Of a stretch of DNA of 64,000 nt, positions 12,265 to 29,735 are shown piece by piece. How positions within the stretch are numbered: the first letter of the stretch is position 1; the number at the start of each line of letters is the position of its first letter. A program made the position numbers and the translations under genes. A model generated the notes under the pieces. It worked only from the letters and a program-made list of their open reading frames with translations. It was not told the origin of the DNA and did no database searches. The DNA comes from Nitrospirota bacterium (lineage in GTDB: Bacteria; Nitrospirota; Nitrospiria; Nitrospirales; UBA8639), in the NCBI GenBank assembly GCA_011088105.1, contig JAALKI010000003.1:1-64000 (forward strand), in the 5' to 3' direction.

Positions 12265-13446
12265 TTAAGGCGAAGGCTTGAGTGAGGCAAAGGCTTGACA
12301 GATTTTAGAGATTTGCTCTTCAGTATGAGCTGCGCTGACACTACAGCGAAGGAGGCTTGCCCCATTTGGGGCGGCTGGTGGCAGAATTAAATTCACATAG
12401 ATCCCGGCTTTAAGTAATCCATTCCATAGTGCGACGGCTTGTTCTTTTTTGGGTAAGATCGTTGCCACGACAGGACTTGGTTCAGGCCCGAGCGTGAAAC
12501 CCAAACTCTGGAGTTCTTTATATAAGTGGCGGGCATTATCCCAAAGACGAGTTTGTAGATCCGGACTTGTCCGAAGAATGTGTAGGGCCATTCTTGTTGA
12601 GGCAATGACTGAAGGCGAAGGGGAGGCTGTAAACACATAGGGTCGGCTTGCATAGCGCAAGAGTTCGAGTTCGTGTCGGCGACTTAAACAAAATCCTCCG
12701 GTTGCGCCAAGACTTTTACTAAAGGTGCCGACAATAAAATCCACATGCTCTTCCACTCCAGCTTCTTCAGCCAATCCGCGGCCATGTTTTCCAAGGACCC
12801 CAAGCGAATGGGCTTCATCGACAAGGAGAAAGGCTCCATACTGTTTTTTAATTGCGGCAATAGGAGCAAGAGGCGCACGATCGCCAAGCATGCTGTAAAT
12901 GCCTTCCACGATAATCAATGTTCTGGTCGTACGATCACCAAGGCGTTGCAATCGTTTTTCTAAATCCGCGGGGTCATTATGTCGAAACCGGATGACCTCG
13001 GCATCACCTAATTTACAGCCATCATAGATACTGGCATGACAGTCGGCATCGAGTAAAATAACATCATTTTTTCCTGGAAGTGTTGAGAGAATGCCAAGAT
13101 TGGCCAAATACCCTGTTGAAAAGACAATACCTGTTGCCATTCCATAAAAGTCAGCTAATTCCCGCTCAAGGGCCACATGGCCGGCGAATGAGCCATTTGC
13201 CATTCTAGATCCAGTCGTGCCTGTGCCTTCCTCTTGAACGGCTTGACTTGCAGCGTCGATACATCGTGGGTCAAAGGTGAGGCCAAGGTAATTATTCGTG
13301 CCGGCCAGGATCGTTCGACGTCCACCCACGATGGCTTCCGTGGCGGAAAGGATCTGTTCGATCACCACGTTAAATGGATCCATGGAGGACTCCATTAATG
13401 TCTGTCTCGCGGCGGCGAGTTCTCGAAACTTTTCAAAAATAGCCAT
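12265..13446 (-). CDS. spt: Serine palmitoyltransferase (sphingoid base synthesis)
   Basis: 393 residues, PLP-dependent alpha-oxoamine synthase that condenses serine with an acyl thioester to give 3-ketosphinganine in the cytoplasm. Signatures resemble Sphingomonas/Caulobacter SPT rather than BioF: DPFNVVIEQ near the N-terminus, FSTGYLANLGILSTLPGK, LDADCHASIYDGC with the cofactor-stacking His137, RFRHN, DEAHS at 210-214, and the PLP lysine K244 in TFSKSLGATGG. The chosen ATG starts one base after the stop of the acyl carrier protein gene; a longer frame to 13506 overlaps that gene and is unlikely. It is the last gene of the leftward operon. Confidence 0.92.
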   Translation of the reverse strand: MAIFEKFRELAAARQTLMESSMDPFNVVIEQILSATEAIVGGRRTILAGTNNYLGLTFDPRCIDAASQAVQEEGTGTTGSRMANGSFAGHVALERELADFYGMATGIVFSTGYLANLGILSTLPGKNDVILLDADCHASIYDGCKLGDAEVIRFRHNDPADLEKRLQRLGDRTTRTLIIVEGIYSMLGDRAPLAPIAAIKKQYGAFLLVDEAHSLGVLGKHGRGLAEEAGVEEHVDFIVGTFSKSLGATGGFCLSRRHELELLRYASRPYVFTASPSPSVIASTRMALHILRTSPDLQTRLWDNARHLYKELQSLGFTLGPEPSPVVATILPKKEQAVALWNGLLKAGIYVNLILPPAAPNGASLLRCSVSAAHTEEQISKICQAFASLKPSP

Positions 13447-13447
13447 G

Positions 13448-13696
13448 TTAGGGTTGACTCGTAATGTGCTCGAGTTGTGTGACAAGGTCTTTGACGGTTT
13501 TGACATCAGGCAGTATATTTAAGGGGACCGAGACATCAAATTGATCTTCAATCTCCAGTAACAGTTCCATCACTTGCATGGAAGCCAGCCCTAAATCAGC
13601 GACTAATTCCATGTCTTCAGTCGGTGATTTTCCTTCGGGGGTGAACTGCCTCAAAATTTCATACACTTGTGGGAGAATGTCTTGATAGCTAGGCAT
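13448..13696 (-). CDS. Dedicated acyl carrier protein of the sphingolipid operon
   Basis: 82 residues, acidic and helical. The 4'-phosphopantetheine attachment Ser39 sits in DLGLAS, followed by the recognition helix MELLLEIEDQFDV. It would present an acyl chain to serine palmitoyltransferase, the role of AcpR in Caulobacter. It lies between the dehydrogenase and SPT genes; its stop is separated from the SPT start by one base. The acyl-AMP ligase two genes upstream is the likely loading enzyme. A polyketide role is possible but no such genes are nearby. Confidence 0.9.
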   Translation of the reverse strand: MPSYQDILPQVYEILRQFTPEGKSPTEDMELVADLGLASMQVMELLLEIEDQFDVSVPLNILPDVKTVKDLVTQLEHITSQP

Positions 13697-13754
13697 GGTA
13701 TAAAAAGTAAAACGTCAATCCCTTCTAAAACAAAAAATTGTACTGTGTTCTTCA

Positions 13755-14681
13755 TCATAAAGCTAGGGTTTGTTGTAGTCCTTCTTTCAAGGAAACCAGC
13801 GGAGTCCAACCTGTGGCTTCTGTGAAGGCAGTGTTGTCACATACCCAATTGATATGAGTAAGTTCTTGCACTTTTCCTGTGGTCAGCATAGCTGGGGTTC
13901 CAGTTATACGTGCGATACGTTGATTCATCATGGCAAGGCTTGTCAGGACAATGCGAGGGATTCGGAGTTGGATGATGTGTCCTTTTCGTACATGAGCCAT
14001 GGTTTGAGTGATATCTTGCCATGTGTACCCACCGACCTGTCCGTCATGAAGCTCATATATTTTGGATGGAGAGCGTGGCTGTTCAACCCATTTGAGCACG
14101 GCTCTAGCGAGATCATGCACATAGAGAAGAGAAAACCGGGCCTCTGGAGGTCCCAAGAGGAGAGCCAAGCCTCTTGCCATCCATTGAAAAAGAGGCAAAA
14201 GTTCTTGATCTCCTGGTCCGTAGACAGCCGGAGGACGAAAGATGCCCCAAGGGAATGGTGGCTCAGCATTCATGAGCACGCGTTCTCCCGCTCTTTTACT
14301 AGCAGCATAGGGAGAAAGGTCTGGTTCACGGGCGGCTAGGGAAGAGATTAATAGAAATCGAGGCGCGCGGGGTTGTGCTTGAATGGCGTGAAGGATATGC
14401 GTGATGCTGTCGATGTTTACGGGGCCAAAATCAGCATGGGTTGTGCCTCGAGTGATCCCAGCACAATGCACAATGGCCTCAACACCTTGAGTAAGGCATT
14501 GAAGACTGTCGTGATCATGCAATGATCCAAGGATCAGCTCTGTCGAAATTTCTGAGAGACGAGAGGTGTCCGACGAAGAACGAACAAGAGAACGGACATG
14601 CCAACCGGCATGAAAAAAATGCTGGGCAATGACACTGCCAAGAAACCCTGTTGCCCCAGTCAAGGCAACGACACGATGCAT
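13755..14681 (-). CDS. cerR: NAD(P)-dependent epimerase/dehydrogenase, CerR-like ceramide reductase
   Basis: 308 residues, extended short-chain dehydrogenase. The Rossmann motif TGATGFLG is at residues 8-15, the catalytic pair is Tyr125/Lys129 (YAASK), with Ser113-114 in LLISSLAA. Located between the acyl-AMP ligase and the acyl carrier protein/SPT genes, it is best explained as the reductase that converts the 3-keto group of the sphingoid or oxidised ceramide, as CerR does in Caulobacter. On sequence alone it could be another sugar or sterol dehydrogenase; the call relies on context. ATG 14681 begins nine bases after the ligase stop. Confidence 0.82.
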   Translation of the reverse strand: MHRVVALTGATGFLGSVIAQHFFHAGWHVRSLVRSSSDTSRLSEISTELILGSLHDHDSLQCLTQGVEAIVHCAGITRGTTHADFGPVNIDSITHILHAIQAQPRAPRFLLISSLAAREPDLSPYAASKRAGERVLMNAEPPFPWGIFRPPAVYGPGDQELLPLFQWMARGLALLLGPPEARFSLLYVHDLARAVLKWVEQPRSPSKIYELHDGQVGGYTWQDITQTMAHVRKGHIIQLRIPRIVLTSLAMMNQRIARITGTPAMLTTGKVQELTHINWVCDNTAFTEATGWTPLVSLKEGLQQTLAL

Positions 14682-14689
14682 GTAGTCGC

Positions 14690-16495
14690 TTAGGAAACAC
14701 TCCCGGTGCAAGCACCAGTCGTTGTTTCGTGTATGGTGGAGGCAGATTGTTGTAGAGGGTGTCCCCAATCTTTTCGCTTGAGGAACCCTTGACGGGCTCC
14801 GGATCGAGAAAGTTTCCCTGATGAGGTCCGTGGCAACGTATGAGGTGGCACCAAGTCAATCAGACAGTCAATGCCTAATTCCTGATGGATCTGTCCCTTA
14901 AGCCGTTCTACCAGGTTGTTCCGTTTCTCATGATCAAACTCACGGCATTGAATGACTAACACCGCAGTTTCAACACCGTGGGGTGAGGATACTGAAAAGG
15001 CCGAGACATCACCAGATCGTAACCCAGGTTGCTGTTCAGCTAAACACTCAAGGTCCTGAGGCCAAATATTTCTGCCATGAATGATAATTAAATCTTTTTT
15101 CCGTCCCGTAATAACTAAATGTTCATTGATGCAGTATCCGATATCACCAGTGTTGAGCCACCCATCATGAGCAAGAACCTCAGCAGTGGCTTCTGGTTCA
15201 CCGAAGTACCCAGACATAATACTTGGGCCCTTAACGAAAATCGTTCCACATTGACGTTCACCGAGAGGATGGCCTTGATCATCTCGGACTTCGACATGAT
15301 AGTCAGGCAAAGGAGCCCCACAGTTTACAAAGGAGGTGATGCGTTCTTTTTCTTGTGGAGAGTCAGACTTCATCTGTGAATCAACTGGGAGCGCCTCTCT
15401 TGATTCAGCAAGGTGCTCGGCATTGACATGGTCTACATTAAGGCCTTGGTCTAGAGGGGCAAAACTGATAGCCAAGGCACATTCAGCCATGCCGTAGCAA
15501 GCCAAAAAAGCCTGAGGATTAAACCCACTTGGAGCAAGCGTATCAGCAAATTTTCCCATAGGATTCGCGTGAATGGTTTCTGCTCCCACTCCAGCCACTC
15601 TCCAAGAACGAAGGTCAAAGTTGGCAACTTCTTCTTTTCGAATGCGCCGTGCACAGAGCTCGTACCCAAATGTAGGACTAAAGGAAATGGTCCCGCGATT
15701 CCGTGTCATAAGGTTCAACCATTGACGCGGACGCATCGCAAAATCCCTCGTTCCCAAGTAATCAACGGACAATTGTGAAGCAACTGGACCAAGGACAAAT
15801 CCAACAAGTCCCATATCATGATAAAACGGCAACCATGAGACACATCGATCGCCAGGTCGCACTTGAAGCCCATCTTTAATGATGCCGGATAGATTGCTTA
15901 AGGCCATCTGTTGCGTGATCACAACGCCACGAGGGAAACGCGTACTACCTGAGGTATACTGGATGTATGCAAGGTCTTGGCTTTCAGGGAGCGGGAGGTC
16001 GACGGCTTCACCCGGTAATTGGGAAAACATCGCTGGAGTGCCAAGAAACGTCAGGTCAAGACCTTTCGCGGCTTCTTCAAGAAAGAGGTGAAAGTCATCG
16101 GACGCAATGGCCACAGCAGGTCGGCAATTGATGAGAAGCCCGCGGAGCTGTTCAACGTAGGATTGATGACTGCCAAGATGGATGGAAGCTGGCAGTGGAA
16201 CAGGAACGAGGTTGGCATATTGGCAAGCAAAGAAGAAGCGGGAGAAGTCTGCACGGGTATCAGCAACAATAGCAACACGTGAGCCTCGTTCAATACCCAA
16301 TTGGCTAAATTGATAGGCTAACGCGATGGCTTGCTCACGAAGGAGTTTGTAAGGCAGAACTTCATAAAGCTTGCCTTTGCCATCATAAAAGTTAAATCCT
16401 GTTTGGCCTAGTGCCGCATAATCAAGAGCCTCTGGCAGCGTACGAAAGCCTGCTGCCCGAAGAGGCAAATGGTGTTCGGTATACGTAGGTTCCAT
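14690..16495 (-). CDS. Fatty acyl-AMP ligase (AasR-like) of the sphingolipid operon
   Basis: 601 residues, ANL superfamily. The P-loop YIQYTSGSTRFPRGVVITQ, GYFGEPEATAEVL and the C-terminal NTGDIGYCINEHLVITGRKKDLIIIHG segment place it with fatty acyl-AMP ligases, which load fatty acids onto carrier proteins. It would activate a free fatty acid and charge the acyl carrier protein encoded two genes downstream, matching AasR of Caulobacter. First gene of the four-gene leftward operon; its promoter should lie in the AT-rich spacer upstream. Confidence 0.9.
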   Translation of the reverse strand: MEPTYTEHHLPLRAAGFRTLPEALDYAALGQTGFNFYDGKGKLYEVLPYKLLREQAIALAYQFSQLGIERGSRVAIVADTRADFSRFFFACQYANLVPVPLPASIHLGSHQSYVEQLRGLLINCRPAVAIASDDFHLFLEEAAKGLDLTFLGTPAMFSQLPGEAVDLPLPESQDLAYIQYTSGSTRFPRGVVITQQMALSNLSGIIKDGLQVRPGDRCVSWLPFYHDMGLVGFVLGPVASQLSVDYLGTRDFAMRPRQWLNLMTRNRGTISFSPTFGYELCARRIRKEEVANFDLRSWRVAGVGAETIHANPMGKFADTLAPSGFNPQAFLACYGMAECALAISFAPLDQGLNVDHVNAEHLAESREALPVDSQMKSDSPQEKERITSFVNCGAPLPDYHVEVRDDQGHPLGERQCGTIFVKGPSIMSGYFGEPEATAEVLAHDGWLNTGDIGYCINEHLVITGRKKDLIIIHGRNIWPQDLECLAEQQPGLRSGDVSAFSVSSPHGVETAVLVIQCREFDHEKRNNLVERLKGQIHQELGIDCLIDLVPPHTLPRTSSGKLSRSGARQGFLKRKDWGHPLQQSASTIHETTTGACTGSVS

Positions 16496-17058
16496 GCGTT
16501 GCTAGCCTCTCTTCCCCATCATCAATTCGTTGGTCAATACGTATTTTATCAAGCAGCTATTGCAATCTCTATGCACACTGCAACGGGAATTCAGAAGTAA
16601 AAAGTATGTTAAAACACAGTGGTTGCCAGAATGAAACCACGCAAAACTTCATATTTGTATCTAATTCTCATCAAAAAGGCAACCAGTAAATCAAAAAACT
16701 GCCAATTATTTCCTAGATCATCAAAAAAAACACGCTTCCGGACAAGCAGTTTTCATTAGAATATACAGCACGTTAAATAGCATCAAGTCGGTCAGCATAC
16801 AAATAGAGTTCTCCTAAAGTATGCAAAAAATGAGCCAATTGAAAATTATTTAATGTTTGACACGATTGTCATGGGATAAAATATAGATTTCTCTATTCTA
16901 TTTCGTGCATGGAAAGGCTTTTGTGTATTTAAAACACAACACAAAGTGAGTGATTTTAGCAACTTTGTCTATGTATATACATGTAAGTTAAATAGGGCTA
17001 GAGATCAGGCCAGATGAATGGAGACAAGATGGGGTAAGAGAATTAAGGATTAAGACGG
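16496..17058. other. AT-rich spacer upstream of the sphingolipid operon
   Basis: About 560 bases, noticeably richer in A and T than the flanking genes. It should hold the promoter of the leftward acyl-AMP ligase operon and the end of the HIT gene. A TTGACA at about 16857 points rightward with poor spacing to a TATAGA, so I do not call it. No gene-like frame. Confidence 0.5.
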
Positions 17059-17514
17059 TTAGATAGCCAAGTTTTGCTGAATGTGAGTAATAATGACTTG
17101 ATGAAGGTCTGGTGAGGTTGGGTTTGTTCTGGTGAGGTCTGGTGGTCCTGGCCAGGAGTGGTCAAGAAATTCATGCCCTTCGAAATTTTTCGGGTCGGCA
17201 TATCGAGGAAAAATGTGAAAGTGGACATCAGGGTCAACCATCATCAGCATCAGGTAATTGATCTTGTCAAAAGCAAAGGCCCGTTCAAGGCCTTGCTCAA
17301 TTTCCCTGGTCACGGTATGAAGCTCTGTAAAGGCATCCTGACTCAATTGGGAAAATTGCGTGGCAGGTTCGGCGCAGATTAACACGAGTGAGCCGAGCGT
17401 GACTTGGGTTGGGCGCAAAAGCATGGTCCACCGGCCAAATGTCTTGATCTGGGTGCCCGGGGCACCAAACTTTTTCATTGTGGCATTGAGCGTATTCGTG
17501 GGAAGCTTGTCCAT
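17059..17514 (-). CDS. HIT-family nucleotide hydrolase/transferase
   Basis: About 151 residues. The histidine triad appears as VHFHIFPRY near residue 110, the HxHxx part of the HIT active site, with SLVLICAEPATQFSQLS and a helical region before it. HIT enzymes hydrolyse or transfer nucleoside monophosphates from dinucleoside polyphosphates or adenylates. ATG 17514 is taken as the start because the earlier frame runs into the divergent hydroxylase gene. Its setting beside acyl-adenylate-forming and nucleotidyl-transferring enzymes is suggestive but not proof of a role in lipid metabolism. Confidence 0.75.
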   Translation of the reverse strand: MDKLPTNTLNATMKKFGAPGTQIKTFGRWTMLLRPTQVTLGSLVLICAEPATQFSQLSQDAFTELHTVTREIEQGLERAFAFDKINYLMLMMVDPDVHFHIFPRYADPKNFEGHEFLDHSWPGPPDLTRTNPTSPDLHQVIITHIQQNLAI

Positions 17515-17630
17515 ACGTAGGCCGATTATGGCTTGAGTCAACAGTGAAAGCAACCTATAATGCTAGGTGTGATGCTCTTGAAAAAGACGGTCAAAATATT
17601 TCCTTATCGAAAGCAGAAGGTCAGCGAGTG

Positions 17631-18374
17631 ATGTACGATTTTTGGAGGGGACGCAAACACCATCTCGACAAAATGACGCTATCAGAATTAACGGTAGCGT
17701 ATTTTCAATATCCTGGTATTCAGGTCTACCTGGTGTTGTTGTGTGTTAGTGCATGGCTCTCATTGACAATGGGGGATGCGGGAAGTGGCGACAGGGGTTG
17801 GATATTAACTGCAGCCGTTATTCTTGCGTTGTTGGTGTATCCCCTTGTGTGGTATCTCCTTCATCGGTTTGTGTTACATGGCCGGTACATGTACCGCTCT
17901 CCACGATTTTCGGCAGTATGGAAGCGCATTCATTATGATCATCATCAGGATCCCCGAGATCTTCGGGTGCTCTTTGGGGCGTTGTATACCACGTTGCCCA
18001 CCATTGCCTTAGTAACGATTCCTATTGGTGCGCTCATTGGGGGCCATGCTGGGGCGGCTGCGGCATTTGCCGGGGGGATTGCCGGGACGTTGTTCTATGA
18101 ACTTTGCCATTGCATTCAACATTTACAATATGTCCCCCGCAGTAAGTTTCTTCGTCGCATTAAACAATTGCACTTGCTACACCATTTTCATAATGAGAAT
18201 GGAAACTACGGCATCACAAATTTCCTTTGGGATCGTGTGTCCGGCACATACTATGAGCAGGCAGCGGATGTCTCGCGAAGTGAGACCGTGTTTAACTTAG
18301 GGTATGTCGATGATGAATGCACCAAATATCCATGGGTTGCGCAACTTTCTCAATCGGGAGACCATCCGAGATGA
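17631..18374 (+). CDS. Fatty-acid hydroxylase/sterol desaturase family membrane protein
   Basis: About 247 residues. Di-iron histidine boxes: HRFVLH, HYDHH, and HLLHHFHNENGNYG near the C-terminus, plus further His in HCIQH, the pattern of the FA hydroxylase superfamily (FA2H, sterol C4/C5 enzymes). Four hydrophobic segments fit an integral membrane enzyme. Next to serine palmitoyltransferase and a ceramide-synthase-like gene, hydroxylation of the sphingoid base or N-acyl chain is the natural inference. The start is uncertain: GTG 17544 is also in frame but adds a stretch that looks non-coding; ATG 17631 has AGAAGG upstream. Confidence 0.82.
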   Translation: MYDFWRGRKHHLDKMTLSELTVAYFQYPGIQVYLVLLCVSAWLSLTMGDAGSGDRGWILTAAVILALLVYPLVWYLLHRFVLHGRYMYRSPRFSAVWKRIHYDHHQDPRDLRVLFGALYTTLPTIALVTIPIGALIGGHAGAAAAFAGGIAGTLFYELCHCIQHLQYVPRSKFLRRIKQLHLLHHFHNENGNYGITNFLWDRVSGTYYEQAADVSRSETVFNLGYVDDECTKYPWVAQLSQSGDHPR

Positions 18375-18431
18375 GTGATCGTCATGAGGTGGGCCCCTTT
18401 ATGAGTTGTCAGCGTCTGCGCATCGTTACTA

Positions 18432-19628
18432 GTGCCTCCTACGCCGTTGAAATGTTCTGATCCATCCCCTCCGTCGATTGCAGTGCTCCCTGTTGATGAC
18501 AAGAGGAGCCGTCGCGCGTTTCATCAGTTGCCATGGACTATTTATCATGAAGACCCAGCCTGGGTTCCTCCATTATTGCTTGAACGGCGTGAGCATGTAT
18601 CCCAGCGCAATCCATATTTTGCCCATGCCGAGGCAAAATTTTGGATAGCTTACCGCAACGAAAAACCGGTTGGCCGAATCAGTGCACAAATCGATCAGCT
18701 TTACCTAGAGAGCTATAAAGATGGCACAGGCTTCTTTGGCATGCTGGAAGCGGAGAATGATCCACAGGTATTTCAGGCGCTCTTCTCCACGGTCGAAGTG
18801 TGGTTACGTCAGCAGGGTATGCAACAGATTCGCGGGCCTTTTAACCTTTCTGTCAATGAAGAATGTGGACTATTGGTAGAGGGTTTTGCCACTGCTCCAA
18901 TGGTGATGATGGGCCATGCGCGTCCCTATTATGCCTCGCTGGTAGAAGCACAAGGATATCAGCCGGTCAAAGACATGTTTGCCTATATTATGGATTCGGT
19001 GTTTGAGACTCCGCCTTTTATGGAAAAAGTGTTGGCTCGTCTGGGAGCAGGCATCCGCATCCGTCCCTTGCAACGATCCCGCTTCGATGAGGAAATGGAA
19101 ACACTTCGGGACATTTTTAACGATGCCTGGTCAGAGAACTGGGGGTTCCTCCCATTTACGCCTGCTGAATTCCGGCATGTGGCCAGTACACTCAAACTGC
19201 TCGTGGATGATGATTTTGTGCAGATTGCAGAAGTCGATGGTGTGCCAGCTGCCATGATTGTTGTCTTTCCGAATGTGAATGAAGCGATCAGAGATCTGAA
19301 TGGTCGTGTATGGCCGTTCGGATGGGCTAAACTCTTGTGGCGTTTGAAGGTGGCTTATCCCAAGACCGCACGGATTCCACTGATGGGAGTGCGAAAACGT
19401 TTTCAACGGACCCCATTGGGGATTGCCTTAGCCTATGCGGTGATTCATGCTGTTCGAGCTCCGGGGGCCAAGCGACAGGTGGAACGAGTCGAAATGTCTT
19501 GGATTCTTGAAGACAATGTGGGGATGAGAAGCATTCTCAATAGCTTAGGTGCGCATCCATACAAACGTTATTGTCTCTATGAAAAGTCACTGAAGGGAGT
19601 GTCGAATCATTCAAACCTCTGTCAATAG
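18432..19628 (+). CDS. bcerS: GNAT-fold N-acyltransferase, bacterial ceramide synthase (bCerS)-like
   Basis: 398 residues, much larger than ordinary GNAT acetyltransferases, with a duplicated acyltransferase fold. Recognisable stretches: WTIYHEDPAWVPPLL and NPYFAHAEAKFWIA near the N-terminus, GPFNLSVNEECGLLVEGF, GHARPYYASLVEAQGY in the middle, and VERVEMSWILEDNVGMRSILNSLGA near the C-terminus. This matches the large acyltransferases found beside bacterial SPT genes and identified as ceramide synthase in Caulobacter; it would N-acylate the sphingoid base. GTG 18432 is the only reasonable start. It ends in a perfect 12-base stem-loop. Confidence 0.8.
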   Translation: MPPTPLKCSDPSPPSIAVLPVDDKRSRRAFHQLPWTIYHEDPAWVPPLLLERREHVSQRNPYFAHAEAKFWIAYRNEKPVGRISAQIDQLYLESYKDGTGFFGMLEAENDPQVFQALFSTVEVWLRQQGMQQIRGPFNLSVNEECGLLVEGFATAPMVMMGHARPYYASLVEAQGYQPVKDMFAYIMDSVFETPPFMEKVLARLGAGIRIRPLQRSRFDEEMETLRDIFNDAWSENWGFLPFTPAEFRHVASTLKLLVDDDFVQIAEVDGVPAAMIVVFPNVNEAIRDLNGRVWPFGWAKLLWRLKVAYPKTARIPLMGVRKRFQRTPLGIALAYAVIHAVRAPGAKRQVERVEMSWILEDNVGMRSILNSLGAHPYKRYCLYEKSLKGVSNHSNLCQ

Positions 19629-19645: not shown

Positions 19646-19671
19646 AGAGTGTCAAGCACCAGAAAGAACAA

Positions 19672-19892: not shown

Positions 19893-19908
19893 CTGTTGAG
19901 ACTGTCGC

Positions 19909-20742
19909 ATGTCCCAAACACCTCTATCATTTACTGCCGTGGTGCTCGCAGGAGACCGAAAGCCCGGCGATCCAATCGCCGAGGCTGCAGGAGTGTCTGG
20001 CAAAGCCTTCGCGCCTGTGGGTGGCAAGCCTATGGTCATTCGAGTGCTTGATGCCCTGGATGCTGCGAAGTCTATTGAGGCACAGATCCTCTGTGGTCCC
20101 CCGCAAACGGCCCTACACAACCAGACCATATTAGCAACCAGAGTAAGTTCGCATCGCGTAAGGTGGGTGGAGCCGCAAGCGACCCCCAGTGCCAGTGCCT
20201 ACCACGTGATGCAGGGACTTCCAGATACTACACCAGTACTCTTGACGACAGCCGACCATGCATTGTTGACCAGTGACATGGTCGATTATTTTTGCACGCA
20301 GGCGGTAGTGCAGAAGTGTGATCTCGCTGTGGGAGTGGTGCCCTATGAACTGGTTGCTAAGGCCTACCCGGGGATGCGACGAACCGCAACTCGTTTGCGA
20401 GATGGGGCCTATTGCAGTTGTAATCTCTTTGCCTTTGTCACGCCAGCCGCGTGGGATGCCGCAGCCATGTGGTGCCAGGTAGAGCAAAATCGAAAGCGCC
20501 CATGGAAGATTGTGCAGGCATTTGGGTGGGGGGCGGTCTTGCAATACGTTTTGGGACGGCTCTCCTTATCGGATGGTTTCGCTCGGGTATCTACCAAAAT
20601 GGGCTTCAATGTCCAGGCAGTGCTGATGCCCTACGCACAAGCGGCCGTTGATGTTGACACCGTGGAAGATTGGAAATTTGTCGAGTCGTTGGTTAGGCCT
20701 CAGGATGCTCCCAGGCTTTCACAAGAGAGGCAGCATGATTGA
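19909..20742 (+). CDS. MobA-like nucleotidyltransferase in the sphingolipid locus
   Basis: 277 residues with a nucleotidyltransferase fold. The N-terminal VVLAGDRKPGDP is a modified GxGxR-type nucleotide loop, followed by GKAFAPVGGKPMV and LTTADHALLTSDMV, where the acidic residue would bind metal. Closest in style to MobA/IspD-like NTP transferases. It is read in the same direction as the ceramide-synthase-like gene and may produce an activated head group, for example a CDP- or sugar-nucleotide donor. Caulobacter needs a cytidylyltransferase (CpgD) for its ceramide phosphoglycerate lipid, so this or the next protein could play that role. Its 3' end overlaps the opposite-strand gene by 50 bases. 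Confidence 0.8.
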   Translation: MSQTPLSFTAVVLAGDRKPGDPIAEAAGVSGKAFAPVGGKPMVIRVLDALDAAKSIEAQILCGPPQTALHNQTILATRVSSHRVRWVEPQATPSASAYHVMQGLPDTTPVLLTTADHALLTSDMVDYFCTQAVVQKCDLAVGVVPYELVAKAYPGMRRTATRLRDGAYCSCNLFAFVTPAAWDAAAMWCQVEQNRKRPWKIVQAFGWGAVLQYVLGRLSLSDGFARVSTKMGFNVQAVLMPYAQAAVDVDTVEDWKFVESLVRPQDAPRLSQERQHD

Positions 20743-21460
20743 GATCATCTTGGCAATCGACCTCAGCCCATTGAAGGCCTTGGATAGAACAGATTCCGAC
20801 CAATCCAGAGCTGGCCATCCCATCAATAACCGATAAGTACCATTGCTTCAATGCCTGTGGATGACGCAATGTTTGTTCAATGGCATTGCGAAACAAGGTT
20901 GGCCCCTCTCCACGAAAAAGCAACATGCCGATCGATTCGCCATCGGTCTGTTCAGGCGGAATCATCTTTCCAATATGGACTAACGTATCGCCGTTCAAAG
21001 TGACTTTCATATCATCGGCATCATAAGACGGTTTATGGTCGGTCGCGAGCGTGATTGGGCGAGAAGGAGAGGCTAGCAATCGTTCTAAGACAGCAGCTTC
21101 AAAAAGCGTATCGCCGTTGAGAAGGAGAAAATCTTGAGCCATATCAGGGGCGGCGACCCAACAGCTCACAAGATTATCGGCCATCGCGTAAAAGGGATTA
21201 TAGCGTGTGGACCGATCCTTCGGGTGTGTGCGATTCTGTAAAATCCTTTCAACGTGATCCGCGCCGAACCCCACAACAACAGAAACCGATTCAATGCCAC
21301 AATAGGCTAATTGGTCCAGTTGCCATTCGATCAAGGGATACCCGGCAACTGGCAATGCACATTTAGGTGTATCAGCTGTCAAGGGTAAGAGCCGCCGACC
21401 TTGCCCTGCGCTTAAAATAACAGCCTTCACAGGGGACACGGTTCCATCTTCAGTTGCCAT
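20693..21460 (-). CDS. Phosphocholine cytidylyltransferase-like sugar-phosphate nucleotidyltransferase
   Basis: 255 residues. Canonical signature AVILSAGQGRRLLPLTADTPKCALPVAG, then LIEWQLDQLAYCG, the Asp-containing LLLNGDTLFE, and WAEVDCQDDLNHA near the end. This subgroup includes LicC-type phosphocholine cytidylyltransferases and inositol-1-phosphate cytidylyltransferases, so a CDP-alcohol product is likely. A CDP-alcohol phosphotransferase is encoded about 5 kb away. Its start is 6 bases from the start of the divergent LptF-type gene, implying a shared regulatory region inside coding sequence. Confidence 0.85.
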   Translation of the reverse strand: MATEDGTVSPVKAVILSAGQGRRLLPLTADTPKCALPVAGYPLIEWQLDQLAYCGIESVSVVVGFGADHVERILQNRTHPKDRSTRYNPFYAMADNLVSCWVAAPDMAQDFLLLNGDTLFEAAVLERLLASPSRPITLATDHKPSYDADDMKVTLNGDTLVHIGKMIPPEQTDGESIGMLLFRGEGPTLFRNAIEQTLRHPQALKQWYLSVIDGMASSGLVGICSIQGLQWAEVDCQDDLNHAASLVKAWEHPEA

Positions 21461-21466
21461 TGCGAA

Positions 21467-22612
21467 ATGGGATCAGTCATAGTATGCATTCTGAGCATTT
21501 TGTCCGAAAATCTCAACCATACTGCTACGTTGATTATTACCTGGTACCTTTTTCGAGAAATTCTCAAACCGCAGATCGTGGTTTGTGCATTTCTGGTGGC
21601 AATTTTTGTCAGTTACAGTTCAGCTCGGTATCTAGCTGATGCTGTGACAGGGTTGCTCCCAGCTAGCACCACAGTGGTGCTGATTCTCCTCAAAGCCCTG
21701 ATTGCGCTAGAAGTCCTGCTCCCCATTACGTTGTTTTTGTCCGTGATGTTGGCGTTGAGCCGGTTATACTCGGACTCTGAAATGACTGCACTCGGGGCAT
21801 GTGGCGTGAGCCCTGTGCGAGTGTTAGGTGTGGTGTTGGGCTTTTCGCTCGTCATTGCTAGCCTGGTCGCTATCCTATCGCTGGTCGTTCGGCCATGGGC
21901 GTATGAACACAGCTATTGGATTCGTGCTCAAGCAGACATCCAAATAGACCTCAAAGGACTAGAACCCGGGACCTTTTACGAAAAACAGGGTGGTGATGTG
22001 GTCATTTTTGTGGAGGGGTATGACGCAGAGCATGATGAAATGACCGGGGTATTTTTTCAACGTCTCAAAGGAGACCAATTGCGGGTGATCTATGCTAAAC
22101 GAGGCTATGTCCAGCAAGATAGCGTCACGGGGAGGGAAGTCCCAGTGCTCCTCAACGGCCAGGAATATCAGTTGACGTGGGACGGCAGTCTGGACCGGGT
22201 CGCGACGTTTAAGAAACTGGTCATTCAACTAGAACAGAAAGAAAAAATTCCGGGATATAAACGAAAAGCAGCCCCGACGTGGCAATTGGCGCAATCTAGT
22301 CGACCGAAAGACATTGCGGAATGGCAATGGCGCCTTTCCACACCGCTCTCAACGGTGTTGTTGGGGCTGCTTGCTGTGCCCTTAAGTCGGACGGTGCCAC
22401 GTCAGGGGAAATATGCCAAAATTTTCTGGGGCATCCTCATCTATGCGGTTTACTATAACCTGCAAGAAATAGCGAAGATATGGGTGAAACAAGGCATCAT
22501 GCCAGCGATCCCAGGCATCTGGTGGGTTGATGTATTGTTAGCGGGGGTTCTCTTGGCCCTGTTATGGAAACCATTTCTGAAATACTCGCTCAAACAGGAG
22601 CGAGTTTCTTGA
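21467..22612 (+). CDS. LptF/LptG-family permease, first of a pair
   Basis: About 381 residues. Architecture of YjgP/YjgQ permeases: N-terminal helices (ending VVLILLKALIALEVLLPITLF), a cytoplasmic coupling helix region with SDSEMTALGACGVSP, a periplasmic jellyroll (about 155-270), then three C-terminal helices. The pair normally extracts lipids from the inner membrane and passes them to LptC. Located in a sphingolipid locus rather than with lptA/B/C, it may serve a sphingolipid instead of LPS. ATG 21467 is taken, but TTG 21530 just before WYLFREIL is a possible start. Confidence 0.87.
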   Translation: MGSVIVCILSILSENLNHTATLIITWYLFREILKPQIVVCAFLVAIFVSYSSARYLADAVTGLLPASTTVVLILLKALIALEVLLPITLFLSVMLALSRLYSDSEMTALGACGVSPVRVLGVVLGFSLVIASLVAILSLVVRPWAYEHSYWIRAQADIQIDLKGLEPGTFYEKQGGDVVIFVEGYDAEHDEMTGVFFQRLKGDQLRVIYAKRGYVQQDSVTGREVPVLLNGQEYQLTWDGSLDRVATFKKLVIQLEQKEKIPGYKRKAAPTWQLAQSSRPKDIAEWQWRLSTPLSTVLLGLLAVPLSRTVPRQGKYAKIFWGILIYAVYYNLQEIAKIWVKQGIMPAIPGIWWVDVLLAGVLLALLWKPFLKYSLKQERVS

Positions 22613-22764
22613 TGAAAGCTGTCAGCCGCATGTGCAGCGCTCGTATGGCGCTCAATGGCAATTGGCCATGGAGAGTGCGTTGAAGGAGAAGTTGCTAAAG
22701 GAGAGCACCCATATTCCTAATGGGCTCCACAACCCTCTTCTCTCATGGATCACGTATTGAGACG

Positions 22765-23835
22765 ATGAAAATATTCAATCGCTATATCGGGATACAAGTC
22801 ACCAAGGGGTATATGGTTGTTTTGGCTATCTTGCTGACGGTGTTTAGCTTTTTGGCGTTTGTCGAAGATTTAGAGAATATGGGGAAAGGACAATATCGGC
22901 TCATGGATGCCATCCAGTTTGTTCTGCTCATGGTGCCGAGGAATATCGTGGAGTTGATGCCGGTGACGGCCTTATTGGGCAGTCTCTTAGCGTTGGGAGG
23001 ACTAGCTGGGGGGAATGAACTCATCGCCATGCAGGCGGTGGGAGTATCAGCCTTGCGAATCAGTTGGTTAGTCATGCGATGGGGATGTGTGCTGATTCTG
23101 GCGGTGGTGGGGCTGGATGAGTTGGTGGCGCCGCCGTTGGAACAACAGGCGTTAGCACATCGGACATTCATGACCGCTGACTTAGGGCTCCAGAGGACCG
23201 CGCATGGTTTTTGGGCCCGTGACAAACACCGATTTCTTCATGTGGGGAAGATGCTCCATGGCCGCATTCCAGCAGAAATTGATATCTTCCAGTTTGATGA
23301 AAAAGGGCAATTGCAGCAATACACGCATGCTGATCAAGCACGCGCGACCCCAGACAATCAGTGGATCTTGACCGATGTCCAGCAAAAAGACATCAACAAG
23401 CAAGGCATGCGCATGCACCAGCATGACCAGCTGCCGTGGAAATCATTCGTCAACCAAGACCAAATCGACCTACTTCTGCTGCCTCCCGATAGCCTCTCGC
23501 TCTCTGACCTGTATGGATACATTCATTATCTCGAAGGGCGTCACCAAAATGCCGAGCGATATGCGTTAGCCTTATGGAAAAAAATGGGGATGCCGATGGC
23601 CGTCGGAGCCATGATCTTACTAGCCATTCCCTTCGTGCTTGGCCCGCTTCGGCACATCAGTATGGGAAAACGCATCATGGCTGGGGGGATTATTGGGCTG
23701 TCATTTCATTTAGTAAGTCAAGTCCTTGGACAATTGGGACTCTTGTTTTCTATTCACCCGGCAATGACGGCACTGGCTCCATCTATCGTCGTGCTGTCAA
23801 CAGCCATCTGGCTACTTCGACGAGCCACTGTTTAG
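22765..23835 (+). CDS. LptF/LptG-family permease, second of a pair
   Basis: About 356 residues. Starts MKIFNRYIGIQVTKGYMVV, followed by membrane helices, the coupling motif NELIAMQAVGVSALRI, a periplasmic beta-jellyroll domain, and a C-terminal helix set with AIPFVLGPLRHISMGKRI. Resembles LptG. It follows the LptF-like gene by about 150 bases on the same strand. An ABC ATPase (LptB) and LptC/A are not in this window, so the pair must borrow an ATPase encoded elsewhere. An in-frame ATG at 22720 exists, but 22765 gives the usual N-terminus. Confidence 0.87.
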   Translation: MKIFNRYIGIQVTKGYMVVLAILLTVFSFLAFVEDLENMGKGQYRLMDAIQFVLLMVPRNIVELMPVTALLGSLLALGGLAGGNELIAMQAVGVSALRISWLVMRWGCVLILAVVGLDELVAPPLEQQALAHRTFMTADLGLQRTAHGFWARDKHRFLHVGKMLHGRIPAEIDIFQFDEKGQLQQYTHADQARATPDNQWILTDVQQKDINKQGMRMHQHDQLPWKSFVNQDQIDLLLLPPDSLSLSDLYGYIHYLEGRHQNAERYALALWKKMGMPMAVGAMILLAIPFVLGPLRHISMGKRIMAGGIIGLSFHLVSQVLGQLGLLFSIHPAMTALAPSIVVLSTAIWLLRRATV

Positions 23836-25128: not shown

Positions 25129-26070
25129 TTAGGGAACCAGATAAGGGAGGGTTATAGTCGTTTCGTTTTGTTCTTCAAATATATCTTTTTCCGGCACATA
25201 ACCACGGATAGAGCAATGAAGATTCCACCCACCCTCTGATTGAGTTAATTCATAGAGATGATACTGCGCAGTTCGATCCATTCGCTTGCCAATGTAGGAG
25301 GCAGAGGGTACGCCAATGGCTGGGATAGACCCAGTTGGCGACTCAAGGTTCACAAATGATGATCGATGCGCATGGCCATGGAGGATTAGTTCCGCACCAT
25401 ATTGCCCTAAAACCGATAGAAGTGGTTGACTGTCGACCAACCGTTTCCGCCACTTGACTGTGCCAAGGGCTGGTGGGTGATGGACCAGAACAATGCGGAA
25501 CAGGTTGTGCTCTCGAGTGGTTGCTAAGAGGGAAGAGAGCCTGTTGAGCTGTTGCTTTCCTAAGCACCCTGTCGCCATGAATGGCGCGGTCGGTTGAGCG
25601 GATGATAGTCCGATGAATGCAATCGATCCGCGAATACGGATGCTTGGAAATTCATGTTCAGGATAATGGGGCTGGCTTTCAACTGATTCGGTATGGTCGG
25701 AACACATGTAGGGTGCCCATAAGGCAAAGGTGTCTTCCCAGGGTGTGTCGACATAGGCGTCATGGTTGCCGGGAATGACGGTGACCTTGGATGCTGGTCC
25801 TAGGCCATGGAGCCATTCTTGGACTTCTTGAAATTCTGAGGGCAACCCCAAATGGGTTAAGTCCCCGGTAATGGTGATATGGTCTGGTGTGCATGCTTGC
25901 AGGTCACGTTCCAAGGCCGTAAGGACTTCGCGGCGGTGTTCAGCCTGTCGATGGATTTTCCAGGACAGATAGCCCAGTATACGCTTGCTGCACAACTGCT
26001 TCATTGCAACGGTGTGCAATGAAGAGAGATGAGGGTCTGAGAGATGGGCAAAACGAAAGGGTTCGCTCAT
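25129..26070 (-). CDS. Calcineurin-like metallophosphoesterase
   Basis: 313 residues with all five motifs of the family: HLSDPHL, GDLTHLG, PGNHDAY, LVHHPP and LHGHAHR. No signal peptide or membrane segment, so cytoplasmic or peripheral. Members of this subgroup act on cyclic nucleotides, nucleotide-diphospho-lipids or phospholipid-like esters. It lies between the permease pair and the CDP-alcohol phosphotransferase genes and is read leftward. A phosphatase or pyrophosphatase step in head-group synthesis is possible; the substrate cannot be told from sequence. Confidence 0.85.
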   Translation of the reverse strand: MSEPFRFAHLSDPHLSSLHTVAMKQLCSKRILGYLSWKIHRQAEHRREVLTALERDLQACTPDHITITGDLTHLGLPSEFQEVQEWLHGLGPASKVTVIPGNHDAYVDTPWEDTFALWAPYMCSDHTESVESQPHYPEHEFPSIRIRGSIAFIGLSSAQPTAPFMATGCLGKQQLNRLSSLLATTREHNLFRIVLVHHPPALGTVKWRKRLVDSQPLLSVLGQYGAELILHGHAHRSSFVNLESPTGSIPAIGVPSASYIGKRMDRTAQYHLYELTQSEGGWNLHCSIRGYVPEKDIFEEQNETTITLPYLVP

Positions 26071-26527
26071 GAGAATGGCTTGTCTCTTTGGTCTTGTACT
26101 ACGGTGTTATAGTTTTAAGAAAAGCATTGACGACACTGTCGTTTCTCAAGATACTACCCCTATTTTTGCACGATCCTGTTGCTTGCGGTCGGGTATTTCA
26201 TTCTTTACCCATGATCGTTGGCTAGTATACAATAATTTCCTCTGTTTACCTATCAAGATTGTTCAAGACTATTGAAAAAGGCGGCCAGTTTTCGCAAACG
26301 CTTTGGCCTGCATGCCAGCGGTGTTTCGGGTCATGATGAGTCATGATCCGAAAGGTGGTGAATTAAAAAATTCCCTTTTTTTCCATTACCTGTCACTCAT
26401 TACTCATCACCAAATATGGCTGGATCCTTTTTACATCATCCCAGTTACTGTTGATGGTCGATGTCTACCTGCTAGAGATTTTTGATGAGTTTATCTCGTT
26501 TTGTCTGATGGTTTTCCTACTCATTGT
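26071..26527. other. Gene-free divergent region with a repeat fragment
   Basis: About 450 bases between the metallophosphoesterase and the CDP-alcohol phosphotransferase. Near 26270-26290 it holds CTATTGAAAAAGGCGGCC, resembling the ends of the dispersed repeats at 19672 and 50866. Short frames present lack start signals. Confidence 0.5.
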
Positions 26528-27742
26528 ATGACTGTTTCCCTACTGATTCTTGGTGACACGCCTGTTCATCTTTGGGGGTTGTCTGCTCACGAACGTCTCC
26601 GACGTGTGCTGAAGCCTGTGGGTGTTACTCATGTTGTTGCGAATCTTGCTGCTGTTCCTGAAGGGCATACGGTGCTTATGGTGCGTGCGGACTATGTCTA
26701 TGACAATCGCATCCTCCACAATCTTGTGAAGGCTTCGCCAGTGATTGTCCGTCTTCCAACGAGCCAGGCTCCTGTGGCTGCTCATGTTCATCGGGAATGG
26801 GCTGAATCGGTTCGAGCTGTGGTTTGTGGTGAACAGGCCATGGTTGATGAACCTGCGATTAAAATGGAAACTCCGGAAAGCCTGGCTTCAGCCTATCAAG
26901 AACAGTTACGGAAATTTGATCCGCCTGTGGTCTTGCCGATCGATCCGGCGAACCAGCAATTTTTGGAAGATCAGTTGTTTGCCGGTTCGTATAAAGGAAT
27001 TACCGACTTAGTGACGAAGTGGGTATGGCCGGCGCCGGCGCAGTGGGTGACCCAATGGTGTACTCGGTATGGTATTCAGCCCAATCATGTGACGAGTCTG
27101 GGGTTTGTGTTGGTGTTGATTGCTGGGGTGTGTTTTTATACTGGACAGTTTGGATGGGGGCTGCTCGCAGGTTGGTTGATGACCTTTTTGGATACGGTTG
27201 ATGGCAAACTGGCTCGGGTAACGGTGACGTCCAGTAAGGTGGGGCATGTCTTTGATCATGGGATTGATATCATTCATCCGCCTTTATGGTATTTGGTGTG
27301 GGGACTAGGGCTTTCTACTTTTCACACGGGGGTGCCTGGGCTTTCTGTGGACATTGTAATTTGGATTATTTTTGGTGGCTATATTCTTGGGAGGCTGGTT
27401 GAAGGGGCCTTTCAACTCTGGTTAGGAATGTTTGGTATTTTTTGCTGGCGGCGGTTCGATTCATTTTCACGCTTGATTACCGCTCGACGGAATCCCAACC
27501 TTATTTTTTTAACGATGAGTGTTCTCGTTGGCCGTCCTGACTTGGGTCTTGTGGCCGTGGCGGGATGGACGTTGCTCTCCACAATGCTTCTGTTCGTGCG
27601 TCTGGTTATGGCAAGTTACGTTCGAATGCGATCTGGCCCACTCCAGTCCTGGTTGCGGGAGGTTGATCGGGCTGCCAATGATACATCGCTCGCCGTGCGA
27701 TGGTTTACGCGGCACACGGAGACGGTTCGGCCTTCACCATGA
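26528..27742 (+). CDS. CDP-alcohol phosphatidyltransferase with an N-terminal nucleotidyltransferase-like domain
   Basis: About 404 residues. The C-terminal half is an integral membrane CDP-alcohol phosphotransferase with the full catalytic motif DxxDGxxAR-x8-GxxxDxxxD (Asp222, Asp225, Gly226, Ala229, Arg230, Gly239, Asp243, Asp247). The N-terminal part (about 1-150) resembles a nucleotidyltransferase fold, with VLMVRADYVYDNRILHNL, but lacks the GxGxR nucleotide loop, so it may be non-catalytic. The layout recalls fused inositol-phosphate cytidylyltransferase/DIPP synthase proteins. It would transfer a phospho-alcohol from CDP to a lipid or alcohol at the inner membrane. It overlaps the lipid kinase gene by ATGA. 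Confidence 0.87.
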   Translation: MTVSLLILGDTPVHLWGLSAHERLRRVLKPVGVTHVVANLAAVPEGHTVLMVRADYVYDNRILHNLVKASPVIVRLPTSQAPVAAHVHREWAESVRAVVCGEQAMVDEPAIKMETPESLASAYQEQLRKFDPPVVLPIDPANQQFLEDQLFAGSYKGITDLVTKWVWPAPAQWVTQWCTRYGIQPNHVTSLGFVLVLIAGVCFYTGQFGWGLLAGWLMTFLDTVDGKLARVTVTSSKVGHVFDHGIDIIHPPLWYLVWGLGLSTFHTGVPGLSVDIVIWIIFGGYILGRLVEGAFQLWLGMFGIFCWRRFDSFSRLITARRNPNLIFLTMSVLVGRPDLGLVAVAGWTLLSTMLLFVRLVMASYVRMRSGPLQSWLREVDRAANDTSLAVRWFTRHTETVRPSP

Positions 27743-28773
27743 CGAGTCCTGCCTTAAGTTCTCTGCCTGAAGCCATTCTAGAATGGTCTCATTGTCGATC
27801 GATCGAGCCTGGTCGGCGTCTGCGGATTGGGGTCCTCCACAACCCCTTGAGTGGCAGGAACCGACGATCTGGCCTTGATGACGTCCATCACGCGCTTCGT
27901 GCCTTTCCAGATGTTCGGCAATGCGAAGTACGATCGCCGCCTGATATTTTCTCGGCGTTGTCTGCTTTTTCTCGTGAAGGCATCGAGTTGATTGTGGTTA
28001 ACGGCGGTGATGGGACTATTCAGGCCACATTGACGGTGTTATTGACCGACCATGGTACCCAAGGGCTGCCATTATTGGCGGTGTTGCCGACTGGCACGAC
28101 CAATATGATTGCTGGCGATGTTGGACTTCGGGGCACTCGGCCCAGGGCGTTACAACAACTATGTGCGTATATTCCCTCTGCCACGCATGGGCTTCCCTTG
28201 CTGCGACGGCATGTGCTTCGTGTGCAATCCGATGTTCATCCTGAATCATTGTGTGGGATGTTTTTTGGAACCGGTGGGATTTTGCAAGGTATTGAATATT
28301 GCCGCCGGTCGGTTGCATCCAAAGGGATTCGTGGCGAAATTGGCCCTGCGGTGGCATTAGCCCGGTTTCTGTTTGCGTTAGTCCGTGGCCAAAATGATGT
28401 GCTCCAACCAATTCCGCTGTCTGTTGGAGTGAATGGTGGTCCTTTGGAATCGTCCGAATGTCTCGCATTGTTTGTCAGTACGTTGGATCGATTGTTTCTT
28501 GGCTTGCGGCCCTATTGGGGGCGTGAGGTCGCACCTTTGCACTATACAATGATTCGTGCTAATCCTCGCCACTTACTGCGTGTAGTCTTTGCCTTGTTGC
28601 GTGGGCGTCCTCATCCTATGGCAACATGGGAACATGGATACCATAGTGCGAATGTTGCGCAGGTACAGTTGGCCGTTCCCCATGGATTTACGTTGGACGG
28701 CGAACTGTTTGTTGGCAAGGGGAGCACGGTCACGATTAGTGATGCCGGGCAGGTTTCCTTTATCCAGTTCTAA
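27739..28773 (+). CDS. Diacylglycerol-kinase-family lipid kinase
   Basis: 344 residues. The catalytic domain shows NPLSGRNRRSG, the nucleotide loop VNGGDGT (88-93) and PTGTTNMIA (117 onwards), followed by a C-terminal beta domain ending in FTLDGELF. The family phosphorylates diacylglycerol, sphingosine or ceramide; the Caulobacter ceramide kinase CpgB belongs to it. ATG 27739 overlaps the preceding stop in an ATGA, so translation is coupled to the CDP-alcohol phosphotransferase. In this locus ceramide is the substrate I would test first. Confidence 0.85.
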   Translation: MTSPALSSLPEAILEWSHCRSIEPGRRLRIGVLHNPLSGRNRRSGLDDVHHALRAFPDVRQCEVRSPPDIFSALSAFSREGIELIVVNGGDGTIQATLTVLLTDHGTQGLPLLAVLPTGTTNMIAGDVGLRGTRPRALQQLCAYIPSATHGLPLLRRHVLRVQSDVHPESLCGMFFGTGGILQGIEYCRRSVASKGIRGEIGPAVALARFLFALVRGQNDVLQPIPLSVGVNGGPLESSECLALFVSTLDRLFLGLRPYWGREVAPLHYTMIRANPRHLLRVVFALLRGRPHPMATWEHGYHSANVAQVQLAVPHGFTLDGELFVGKGSTVTISDAGQVSFIQF

Positions 28774-28787: not shown

Positions 28788-29735
28788 ATGAACACACCCC
28801 TTTCTCCCGAGCTTGTTTCTCTCGTCTCACAGCCTCTTGGTGAGACGCAAGCTCCAGCCGTGGATGCATTGATCCAGGCATTGCTCGCACGTTATGGTGA
28901 ATCTGTGCAAGCCATTGTGTTGTATGGGTCTTGCTTGCGTCATGGTGATGTGCACAATGGCCTCGTCGATTTTTATGTGCTGGTCGATACCTATGGCCGG
29001 GCCTATCATCAGGTTTGGCATCGTGTGTTCAATACGCTTCTCCCGCCTAACGTGTTTTATCTGGCTTTGCCTGAAAAAGAGGGTGGGCTTCGTGCCAAGT
29101 ACGCTATCCTCTCGCTTACCGACTTTCAGAAAAGTACCTCGATGCGATGGTTTCATTCCTATTTTTGGGGACGATTTTGCCAGCCAACCCATGTGGCGTT
29201 TGCGAAAAATCGCGAGATTGCCTGTCAGGTATGGGAAGGATTGGCTCAAGCTGCCGTGACGTTTTGCACGCGCGTTCTTCCACTACTTCCACCGGCATGT
29301 GACGCGAAGATGCTTTGGCAAACAGGATTGGCGCGGAGCTATCGCGCTGAGCTACGTGCGGAACGGCCAGAGACCATTGCCCGTTTATATGAAGGGGGAT
29401 CGCATTATTTCGAGTCTGTTGCCCGTATTGCGATGACTCTGGTGCCATTTTCGATAGAGATTCAGTCTGAAACTTTTCATGCGATGATTCCCTCCCGAGT
29501 ACGATTTTTCTGCCGTGTTGGATGGGTTGTTCGCACAATCCAAGGCAAATTGCTCTCGTTGCTCCGTCTCATAAAAGGGTTGATGACATTTCGTGGAGGC
29601 GTGGACTACATTGTCTGGAAGATTCAACGGCATTCAGGCATCACGATTGAAGTGACGCCTCGGCTCCGGCAATACCCTCTGCTCGCTGGGTGGGTGGTTA
29701 TGTGGCGCTTATATCGCAAAGGGGCGTTTCGATAA
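28788..29735 (+). CDS. Nucleotidyltransferase-like protein, Tam41-like
   Basis: 315 residues. The segment IVLYGSCLRHGDVHNGLVDFYVLVD looks like the GS-x-DxD core of a polymerase-beta-type nucleotidyltransferase, arranged as in Tam41 (mitochondrial CDP-diacylglycerol synthase), where it reads YGSG...IDF.. in a similar spacing. The remainder is helical with a possible membrane-associated C-terminus. It starts 15 bases after the lipid kinase and closes the three-gene set, so formation of a CDP-activated lipid is plausible. Similarity is short and the call is tentative. Confidence 0.6.
   Translation: MNTPLSPELVSLVSQPLGETQAPAVDALIQALLARYGESVQAIVLYGSCLRHGDVHNGLVDFYVLVDTYGRAYHQVWHRVFNTLLPPNVFYLALPEKEGGLRAKYAILSLTDFQKSTSMRWFHSYFWGRFCQPTHVAFAKNREIACQVWEGLAQAAVTFCTRVLPLLPPACDAKMLWQTGLARSYRAELRAERPETIARLYEGGSHYFESVARIAMTLVPFSIEIQSETFHAMIPSRVRFFCRVGWVVRTIQGKLLSLLRLIKGLMTFRGGVDYIVWKIQRHSGITIEVTPRLRQYPLLAGWVVMWRLYRKGAFR

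Follow-up and report, generated by a model that had tools for sequence, protein, structure and literature searches.

A probable Caulobacter-type phosphosphingolipid island with its own LptF/LptG pair in a Nitrospirota genome

Relation to known sphingolipid clusters

Serine palmitoyltransferase (SPT)-like genes have been described in 40 phyla (PMC11334938), and the SPT of E. coli BL21 has been verified biochemically (PMC9386255). A phosphosphingolipid cluster is known in several proteobacteria; in Caulobacter crescentus, CC_1153, CC_1152, CC_1158, CC_1159, CC_1160 and CC_1161 are involved in the conversion of ceramide to the lipids CPG and CPG2, and LptC2, LptF2 and LptG2 are the proposed exporters (PMC11324152). 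CC_1160 is the ceramide kinase CpgB (PMC10331486). The locus described here lies in a 64,000-nucleotide stretch of DNA (the window; positions 1 to 64,000 of contig JAALKI010000003.1, assembly GCA_011088105.1) from a Nitrospirota bacterium of UBA8639. Positions 12265–29735 of the window hold 15 genes over ~17 kb that, judged from sequence, form a chromosomal phosphosphingolipid island of the Caulobacter CC_1165–CC_1152 type, a reading to which we assign a probability of about 0.88.

The island consists of a ceramide half (12.3–19.6 kb) and a remainder of headgroup and transport genes (19.9–29.7 kb). The first-pass annotation of this DNA had named six genes of the first half, encoding an acyl-AMP ligase, a CerR-like reductase, an acyl carrier protein, an SPT, a ceramide synthase and a fatty-acid hydroxylase. 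All six open reading frames (ORFs) are present where it placed them, but it underestimated the extent of the locus, as a further 10 kb of headgroup and transport genes adjoin and a HIT-family gene between the ligase and the hydroxylase had been omitted. The island is flanked by pyrD and lpxC, both of the host's own family type, on a contig of 121.7 kb. Thus, the island is chromosomal and a binning artefact is ruled out. The earlier assignment of the host to Nitrospirota is borne out.

Caulobacter orthology was assigned by gene order and similarity through the alphaproteobacterium G649, not from the Caulobacter sequences themselves. The G649 order (LptC-x-flippase-like-aasR-cerR-acpR-spt-1161-1160-1159-1158-HIT-lptF-lptG-bcerS-1153-1152) reproduces that published for CC_1168–CC_1152 (PMC11324152), and the window genes match those of G649. 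The window shares with Caulobacter 11 of 11 biosynthetic genes, LptF2, LptG2 and a HIT gene at the CC_1157 position. Unlike Caulobacter, the island shows no LptC2, CC_1167 or flippase and includes a gene for a hydroxylase resembling yeast Scs7; its ceramide genes are divergent from the bcerS-headgroup half, and the phylum is Nitrospirota.

Other clusters resemble the window in part. The Pseudomonas luteola / P. asuensis island (L084) has the same order, spt-acpR-cerR-aasR-HIT and bcerS-1153-1152-lptF-lptG-1159-1160-1161, with proteins 36–61% identical to those of the window, whereas no hydroxylase or CC_1158 counterpart was found in it. The E. coli BL21(DE3) cluster (L135) shares aasR, cerR, acpR, spt, the ceramide synthase bCerS (YghO) and an extra lptF/lptG pair beside spt, but no counterparts of the kinase, CDP-alcohol transferase or CpgC were found in that stretch. 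Loci in Nitrospirota of other families (L168–L173) share the common ceramide functions cerR, spt and bcerS; their proteins are ~27–43% identical to those of the window and form a separate clade, and no acpR, aasR, headgroup or export genes were found nearby.

Core ceramide genes

The five core genes are as follows.

12265..13506, minus strand: spt, serine palmitoyltransferase (NF047599; 57% identity to the verified E. coli BL21 SPT; pyridoxal phosphate (PLP) Lys/His/Asp motifs)
13448..13696, minus strand: acpR, dedicated acyl carrier protein, Ser39 (PF00550; precedes spt as in Caulobacter and BL21)
13755..14768, minus strand: cerR, short-chain dehydrogenase/reductase (SDR)-type 3-oxo-(ceramide/sphinganine) reductase (PF01370; 41% to BL21 CerR)
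14690..16495, minus strand: aasR, fatty acyl-AMP ligase / acyl-AcpR synthetase (NF006624; 47% to BL21 AasR)
18432..19628, plus strand: bcerS, GNAT-fold bacterial ceramide synthase (PF00583; 49% to E. coli BL21 YghO)

SPT scores 642.6 bits against the NCBIfam SPT equivalog NF047599 (cut-off 500), and its best solved structures are Sphingomonas-type SPTs (453 bits for 2x8u compared with 226.5 bits for KBL). A different α-oxoamine synthase of the BioF/KBL type, in a cluster producing some other acyl amino-ketone lipid, was considered, as the fold is common to all these enzymes and the bioF model yields 343.6 bits. That score is below the bioF cut-off of 426, however, and those for KBL (323, cut-off 460) and HemA (229.8, cut-off 338) likewise fall short; moreover, a dedicated AcpR/AasR pair and bCerS adjoin SPT. 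We regard this alternative as extremely improbable. The SPT identity put forward in the first-pass annotation is retained.

The translation start of spt probably lies at 13446 (internal Met21), giving a 393-residue protein. With this start the overlap with acpR disappears and the PLP lysine of the FSKS motif, codon 264 of the ORF, becomes K244, the number it had been given before. The signature FSTGYLANLGI is present. The start of cerR is likewise probably at 14681, which removes its overlap. The remaining catalytic motifs noted earlier were also found: AcpR Ser39 is at least 95% conserved among 46 copies, the YxxxK motif of CerR corresponds to the conserved Y154xxxK158, and the ligase P-loop is YTSGSTRFPRG at position 180. 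AasR scores 806.5 bits against NF006624 (cut-off 600). Identities of CerR and AcpR to their BL21 counterparts are 41–42%. The acpR gene directly precedes spt and aasR is close by, an arrangement kept in relatives; SPT would condense serine with acyl-AcpR. The AasR-CerR-AcpR-Spt-bCerS route to ceramide that had been proposed is thus supported, but the gene set is not for ceramide only, as headgroup and transport genes follow directly.

Headgroup and export genes

The second half of the island, together with one gene pair for export, comprises eight genes.

19909..20742, plus strand: MobA-like nucleoside triphosphate (NTP) transferase, CC_1153 counterpart (PF12804; same position after bcerS in the alphaproteobacterial locus L183, 35% identity)
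20693..21460, minus strand: nucleotidyltransferase, CC_1152 counterpart (PF12804/PF00483; 47% to L183)
21467..22612, plus strand: lptF2, second LptF permease, CC_1156 counterpart (TIGR04407, 342.7 bits, cut-off 230)
22720..23835, plus strand: lptG2, second LptG permease, CC_1155 counterpart (TIGR04408, 361.1 bits, cut-off 240)
25129..26070, minus strand: metallophosphoesterase, CC_1158 counterpart (PF00149; 40% to the L183 copy, at the CC_1158 position)
26501..27742, plus strand: CDP-alcohol phosphotransferase with an N-terminal nucleotidyltransferase-like domain, CC_1159 (CpgA) counterpart (PF01066)
27700..28773, plus strand: lipid kinase, CC_1160 (CpgB ceramide kinase) counterpart (PF00781; GGDGT at 102)
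28788..29735, plus strand: Tam41-fold nucleotidyltransferase, CC_1161 (CpgC) counterpart, predicted CTP:ceramide-1-phosphate cytidylyltransferase

For each of the six headgroup genes, a counterpart exists both in the alphaproteobacterial locus with the Caulobacter order and in relatives. In the Protein Data Bank (PDB), the CC_1152 counterpart has a match to CTP:phosphocholine cytidylyltransferase with an E-value of 5.6e-11. In the CDP-alcohol phosphotransferase the full catalytic signature is invariant (D234, G235, A238, R239, G248, D252 and D256); its structural model has a pLDDT of 90.4 and its top folds are AF2299 and IPCT-DIPPS, which likewise carry an extra nucleotidyltransferase-like domain. 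The lipid kinase aligns with the L183 copy with 30% identity and an E-value of 1e-25. The CpgC counterpart has no Pfam name. Its AlphaFold model (pLDDT 90.2) has the Tam41 CDP-DAG (diacylglycerol) synthases as its nearest PDB folds in Foldseek, with an E-value of 9.7e-11 and TM scores of 0.50–0.62; the Tam41 profile match is weak (2.9e-5), and one relative passes PF09139. The modelled Tam41 fold would fit an enzyme that forms CDP-ceramide from ceramide-1-phosphate.

The LptF2/LptG2 pair is additional to the canonical one, which in the window genome is located on the same contig at 114.7–116.9 kb. Four LptF/LptG genes were counted in each of the seven island-bearing Nitrospirota that a search reached, and two in each of six tested without an island. 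Island LptF and LptG of several phyla group apart from the Nitrospirota canonical copies with 98–99 support in the SH-like approximate likelihood ratio test (SH-aLRT), and the exclusion of Pseudomonas canonical LptF/LptG from the island groups is supported at 81–83. The window lptF2 and lptG2 group with the cluster copies of other phyla, not with the canonical copies of their own genome. A search of genome G297 (Nitrosospira sp. Nl5, L056) found two LptF/LptG genes only; these group with the island type and may be the sole copies.

The window also carries lpxC (5219–6163), and the genome encodes lpxK and one LptC, so lipopolysaccharide (LPS) is probably made too. The earlier suggestion that one cell produces LPS and sphingolipid is supported by these genes and by the separate canonical LptF/LptG pair.

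Production of ceramide, or glycosylated ceramide, only was weighed against these data; the NTP transferases, kinase, CDP-alcohol transferase and LptF/G would then be unrelated and perhaps serve other phospholipids or LPS. Core genes do occur alone, as in the cerR-spt-bcerS loci of other Nitrospirota (L168–L173) and in the Methylotenera loci L051 and L101, which have spt-acpR-cerR-aasR-bcerS only. However, both halves of the island retain one order across several phyla, Caulobacter needs the counterpart of each headgroup gene for CPG or CPG2 (PMC11324152), and the hosts retain a canonical LptF/G pair in addition to that of the island. We consider a ceramide-only locus very unlikely and favor a phosphosphingolipid island.

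Several points weigh against that assignment. A single LptC was found in the genome, outside the window, and neither a flippase, in or beside the island, nor a CC_1167 counterpart was seen. The kinase, CpgC and CC_1153 counterparts are only 30–35% similar to the alphaproteobacterial copies. The headgroup chemistry is still provisional in Caulobacter as well, and export by LptF2/G2 is a published proposal, not a demonstration. As regards the second LptC and the flippase (CC_1168 and CC_1166), published beta- and gammaproteobacterial members likewise do without them, so they are not required of members.

Two features outside the assigned genes were observed. Between lptG2 and the phosphoesterase, a TPR-repeat ORF at 24024–24720, with both strands open, resembles a repeat-protein remnant. 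Outside the island, two neighboring ORFs on the minus strand (9976–10825) resemble the two parts of a single class-3 lipase, with GTEANK... in one and GQPRVGN... in the other, and may represent a disrupted gene; the first half had no match in Pfam.

Hydroxylase and HIT-family protein

The two genes that complete the island lie between aasR and bcerS.

17059..17553, minus strand: HIT-family protein at the CC_1157 position, proposed pathway enzyme (PF01230; likely start 17514 or 17490)
17544..18374, plus strand: fatty-acid hydroxylase, predicted ceramide N-acyl 2-hydroxylase (PF04116; likely true start 17631)

The only solved-structure match of the hydroxylase is the yeast ceramide fatty-acid 2-hydroxylase Scs7 (PDB 4zr1, E-value 1.4e-14). 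The PF04116 histidine boxes are aligned and read HRFVLH, HYDHH, HCIQH and HLLHH. The gene adjoins bcerS in 13 Nitrospirota loci and, in counts across 296 Nitrospirota genomes, was found in all but one of the seven island carriers and nowhere else. It is predicted to be a ceramide N-acyl 2-hydroxylase; alternatively, it may act on the sphingoid base in the manner of Sur2. In Caulobacter, N-acyl hydroxylation is credited to a different family, the DesA-type CC_0202 (PMC11324152), so an Scs7-like enzyme would achieve this step in a different way.

HIT proteins act on nucleotidyl-linked substrates, which makes acyl-AMP or a nucleoside diphosphate (NDP)-headgroup the candidate substrate here. The window protein scores 24.0 bits against PF01230, barely above the cut-off of 21.5; in the HxHxHxx motif, whose middle His is the catalytic one, the first His is Asp, and H111 and H113 are conserved. 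Published Caulobacter work called CC_1157 "probably unrelated", and in many beta- and gammaproteobacterial islands no HIT gene was found: among loci with aasR and bcerS it was found in 3 of 19 from Pseudomonadota and 6 of 12 from Desulfobacterota. The gene could accordingly be a bystander that is near aasR by chance. Against this, HIT is paired with aasR in all 12 named Nitrospirota loci, and its occurrence among the 296 genomes coincides exactly with the seven island carriers. The subfamily is also highly conserved (in 29 island copies, conservation reaches 95% or more at 38 of 164 columns), and the gene occupies the same position in the alphaproteobacterium G649. A bystander is thus rather unlikely, and the distribution among genomes indicates that the HIT protein is probably a pathway enzyme.

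Distribution and evolutionary history

An island with matching genes and gene order, apart from small gaps, occurs in G135, G204, G229 and G189 of the same family and in G214 of the same taxonomic order. The CC_1158 counterpart was not found in the islands of G204, G229 and G189, nor the hydroxylase in that of G214, and the G135 contig ends within the island. A scan of GTDB genomes, which was not exhaustive, yielded 80 annotated loci and placed complete or partial islands in further members of Nitrospirales, in a single contig of Nitrospinota, and in Rokubacteria, Desulfobacterota, and beta- and gammaproteobacteria. A Rhodobacteria-type SPT above the cut-off occurs in just 6 of the 296 Nitrospirota genomes, which makes the trait unevenly distributed even among members of the family. 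The other type, a compact cerR-spt-bcerS locus, occurs in six more genomes of the phylum (G080, G178, G058, G148, G211 and G090; L168–L173). No SPT relatives were found on viral contigs.

Individual loci showed further features. In G251 (L166/L167, G251:C1 ~60–76 kb), a single-contig relative with the whole island, spt is frame-split near L167:9971–10005, through a sequencing error or recent breakage of the gene. NPIRA04 (G298) has island pieces on two contigs (L030, L039) of one metagenome-assembled genome and six LptF/LptG genes; it possibly has two sphingolipid islands. A second CDP-alcohol phosphotransferase lies near the island end in NPIRA04 (L030), NPIRA01 (L035) and G135 (L017; partial, at the contig end). 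The closest bCerS to that of the window (64%) is on L024, a 5.3 kb contig with HIT and hydroxylase genes that is filed as Chloroflexi and is possibly misbinned.

In the bCerS and CC_1153 trees the window is placed apart from other Nitrospirota, and in the SPT and AasR trees beside its family. A single clade of all Nitrospirota bCerS was rejected by the approximately unbiased (AU) test when G214 was included (p=0.00017) and not rejected without it (p=0.078). Among Nitrospirota bCerS, only G214 is clearly separate, and the latter value does not establish a separate acquisition for the window lineage. A single gain from the ammonia oxidizers Nitrosomonas and Nitrosospira, which carry related islands, was not supported, the window bCerS lying outside their group. 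Comparison with relatives gave no clean empty site, lpxC and pyrD being far apart or on separate contigs. Overall, transfer of the island between phyla is likely.

Proposed pathway and its significance

From the gene identities, gene order, orthology and island-wide co-occurrence, we infer the individual reactions, the headgroup and the export step as follows. AasR would load a free fatty acid onto AcpR, and SPT would condense the acyl group with serine. The Scs7-like hydroxylase would give a 2-hydroxylated N-acyl chain. The CpgB-like kinase would then produce ceramide-1-phosphate, and the Tam41-fold CpgC-like enzyme CDP-ceramide. The two NTP transferases, the CDP-alcohol phosphotransferase and the phosphoesterase may build a charged headgroup resembling the phosphoglycerate units of CPG and CPG2. 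The HIT protein may hydrolyze a nucleotidylated intermediate, either acyl-AMP from AasR or an NDP-headgroup. Dedicated LptF2/LptG2, with the host LptB, LptC and LptA, would deliver the lipid to the outer membrane alongside LPS.

UBA8639, lineage IV 'Nitrospira', to which the window genome appears to belong, has been reported as nitrite oxidizers (PMC12342949). At G000:C53:24040–24816, a 436-residue NarH-like protein common to the family is consistent with a nitrite oxidoreductase beta subunit. We give even odds to a broader proposal, that the island is a mobile module crossing phyla that provides nitrite-oxidizing Nitrospirota with a 2-hydroxylated outer-membrane phosphosphingolipid, with HIT as a dedicated enzyme and LptF2/LptG2 as a sphingolipid-specific exporter beside LPS.

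The first-pass annotation considered the pathway not widely described in this lineage. This stands for Nitrospirota by name, as no paper on sphingolipids in the phylum was found in the open-licence literature; but since SPT-like genes are already known from 40 phyla, ceramide capacity alone is of modest novelty. What is new is that biosynthesis genes and LptFG form a complete island outside Proteobacteria, that a HIT gene is associated with it, and that it includes an Scs7-like hydroxylase of its own.

The island in Nitrospirota extends the Caulobacter pathway, as a gene set, well past Proteobacteria and draws attention to a probable pathway gene that has been overlooked. Its recurrence in distant phyla makes gene retention a guide to the Caulobacter genes that are important: the HIT gene stands out, and there are natural copies in which CC_1158 is retained. 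The LptF2/LptG2 pairs can be compared with the LPS pair of the same host, so that the question of bacterial sphingolipid export becomes testable. If the proposed function is correct, marine and wastewater ceramide pools would gain another source, and these bacteria would combine two lipid systems in their outer membrane.

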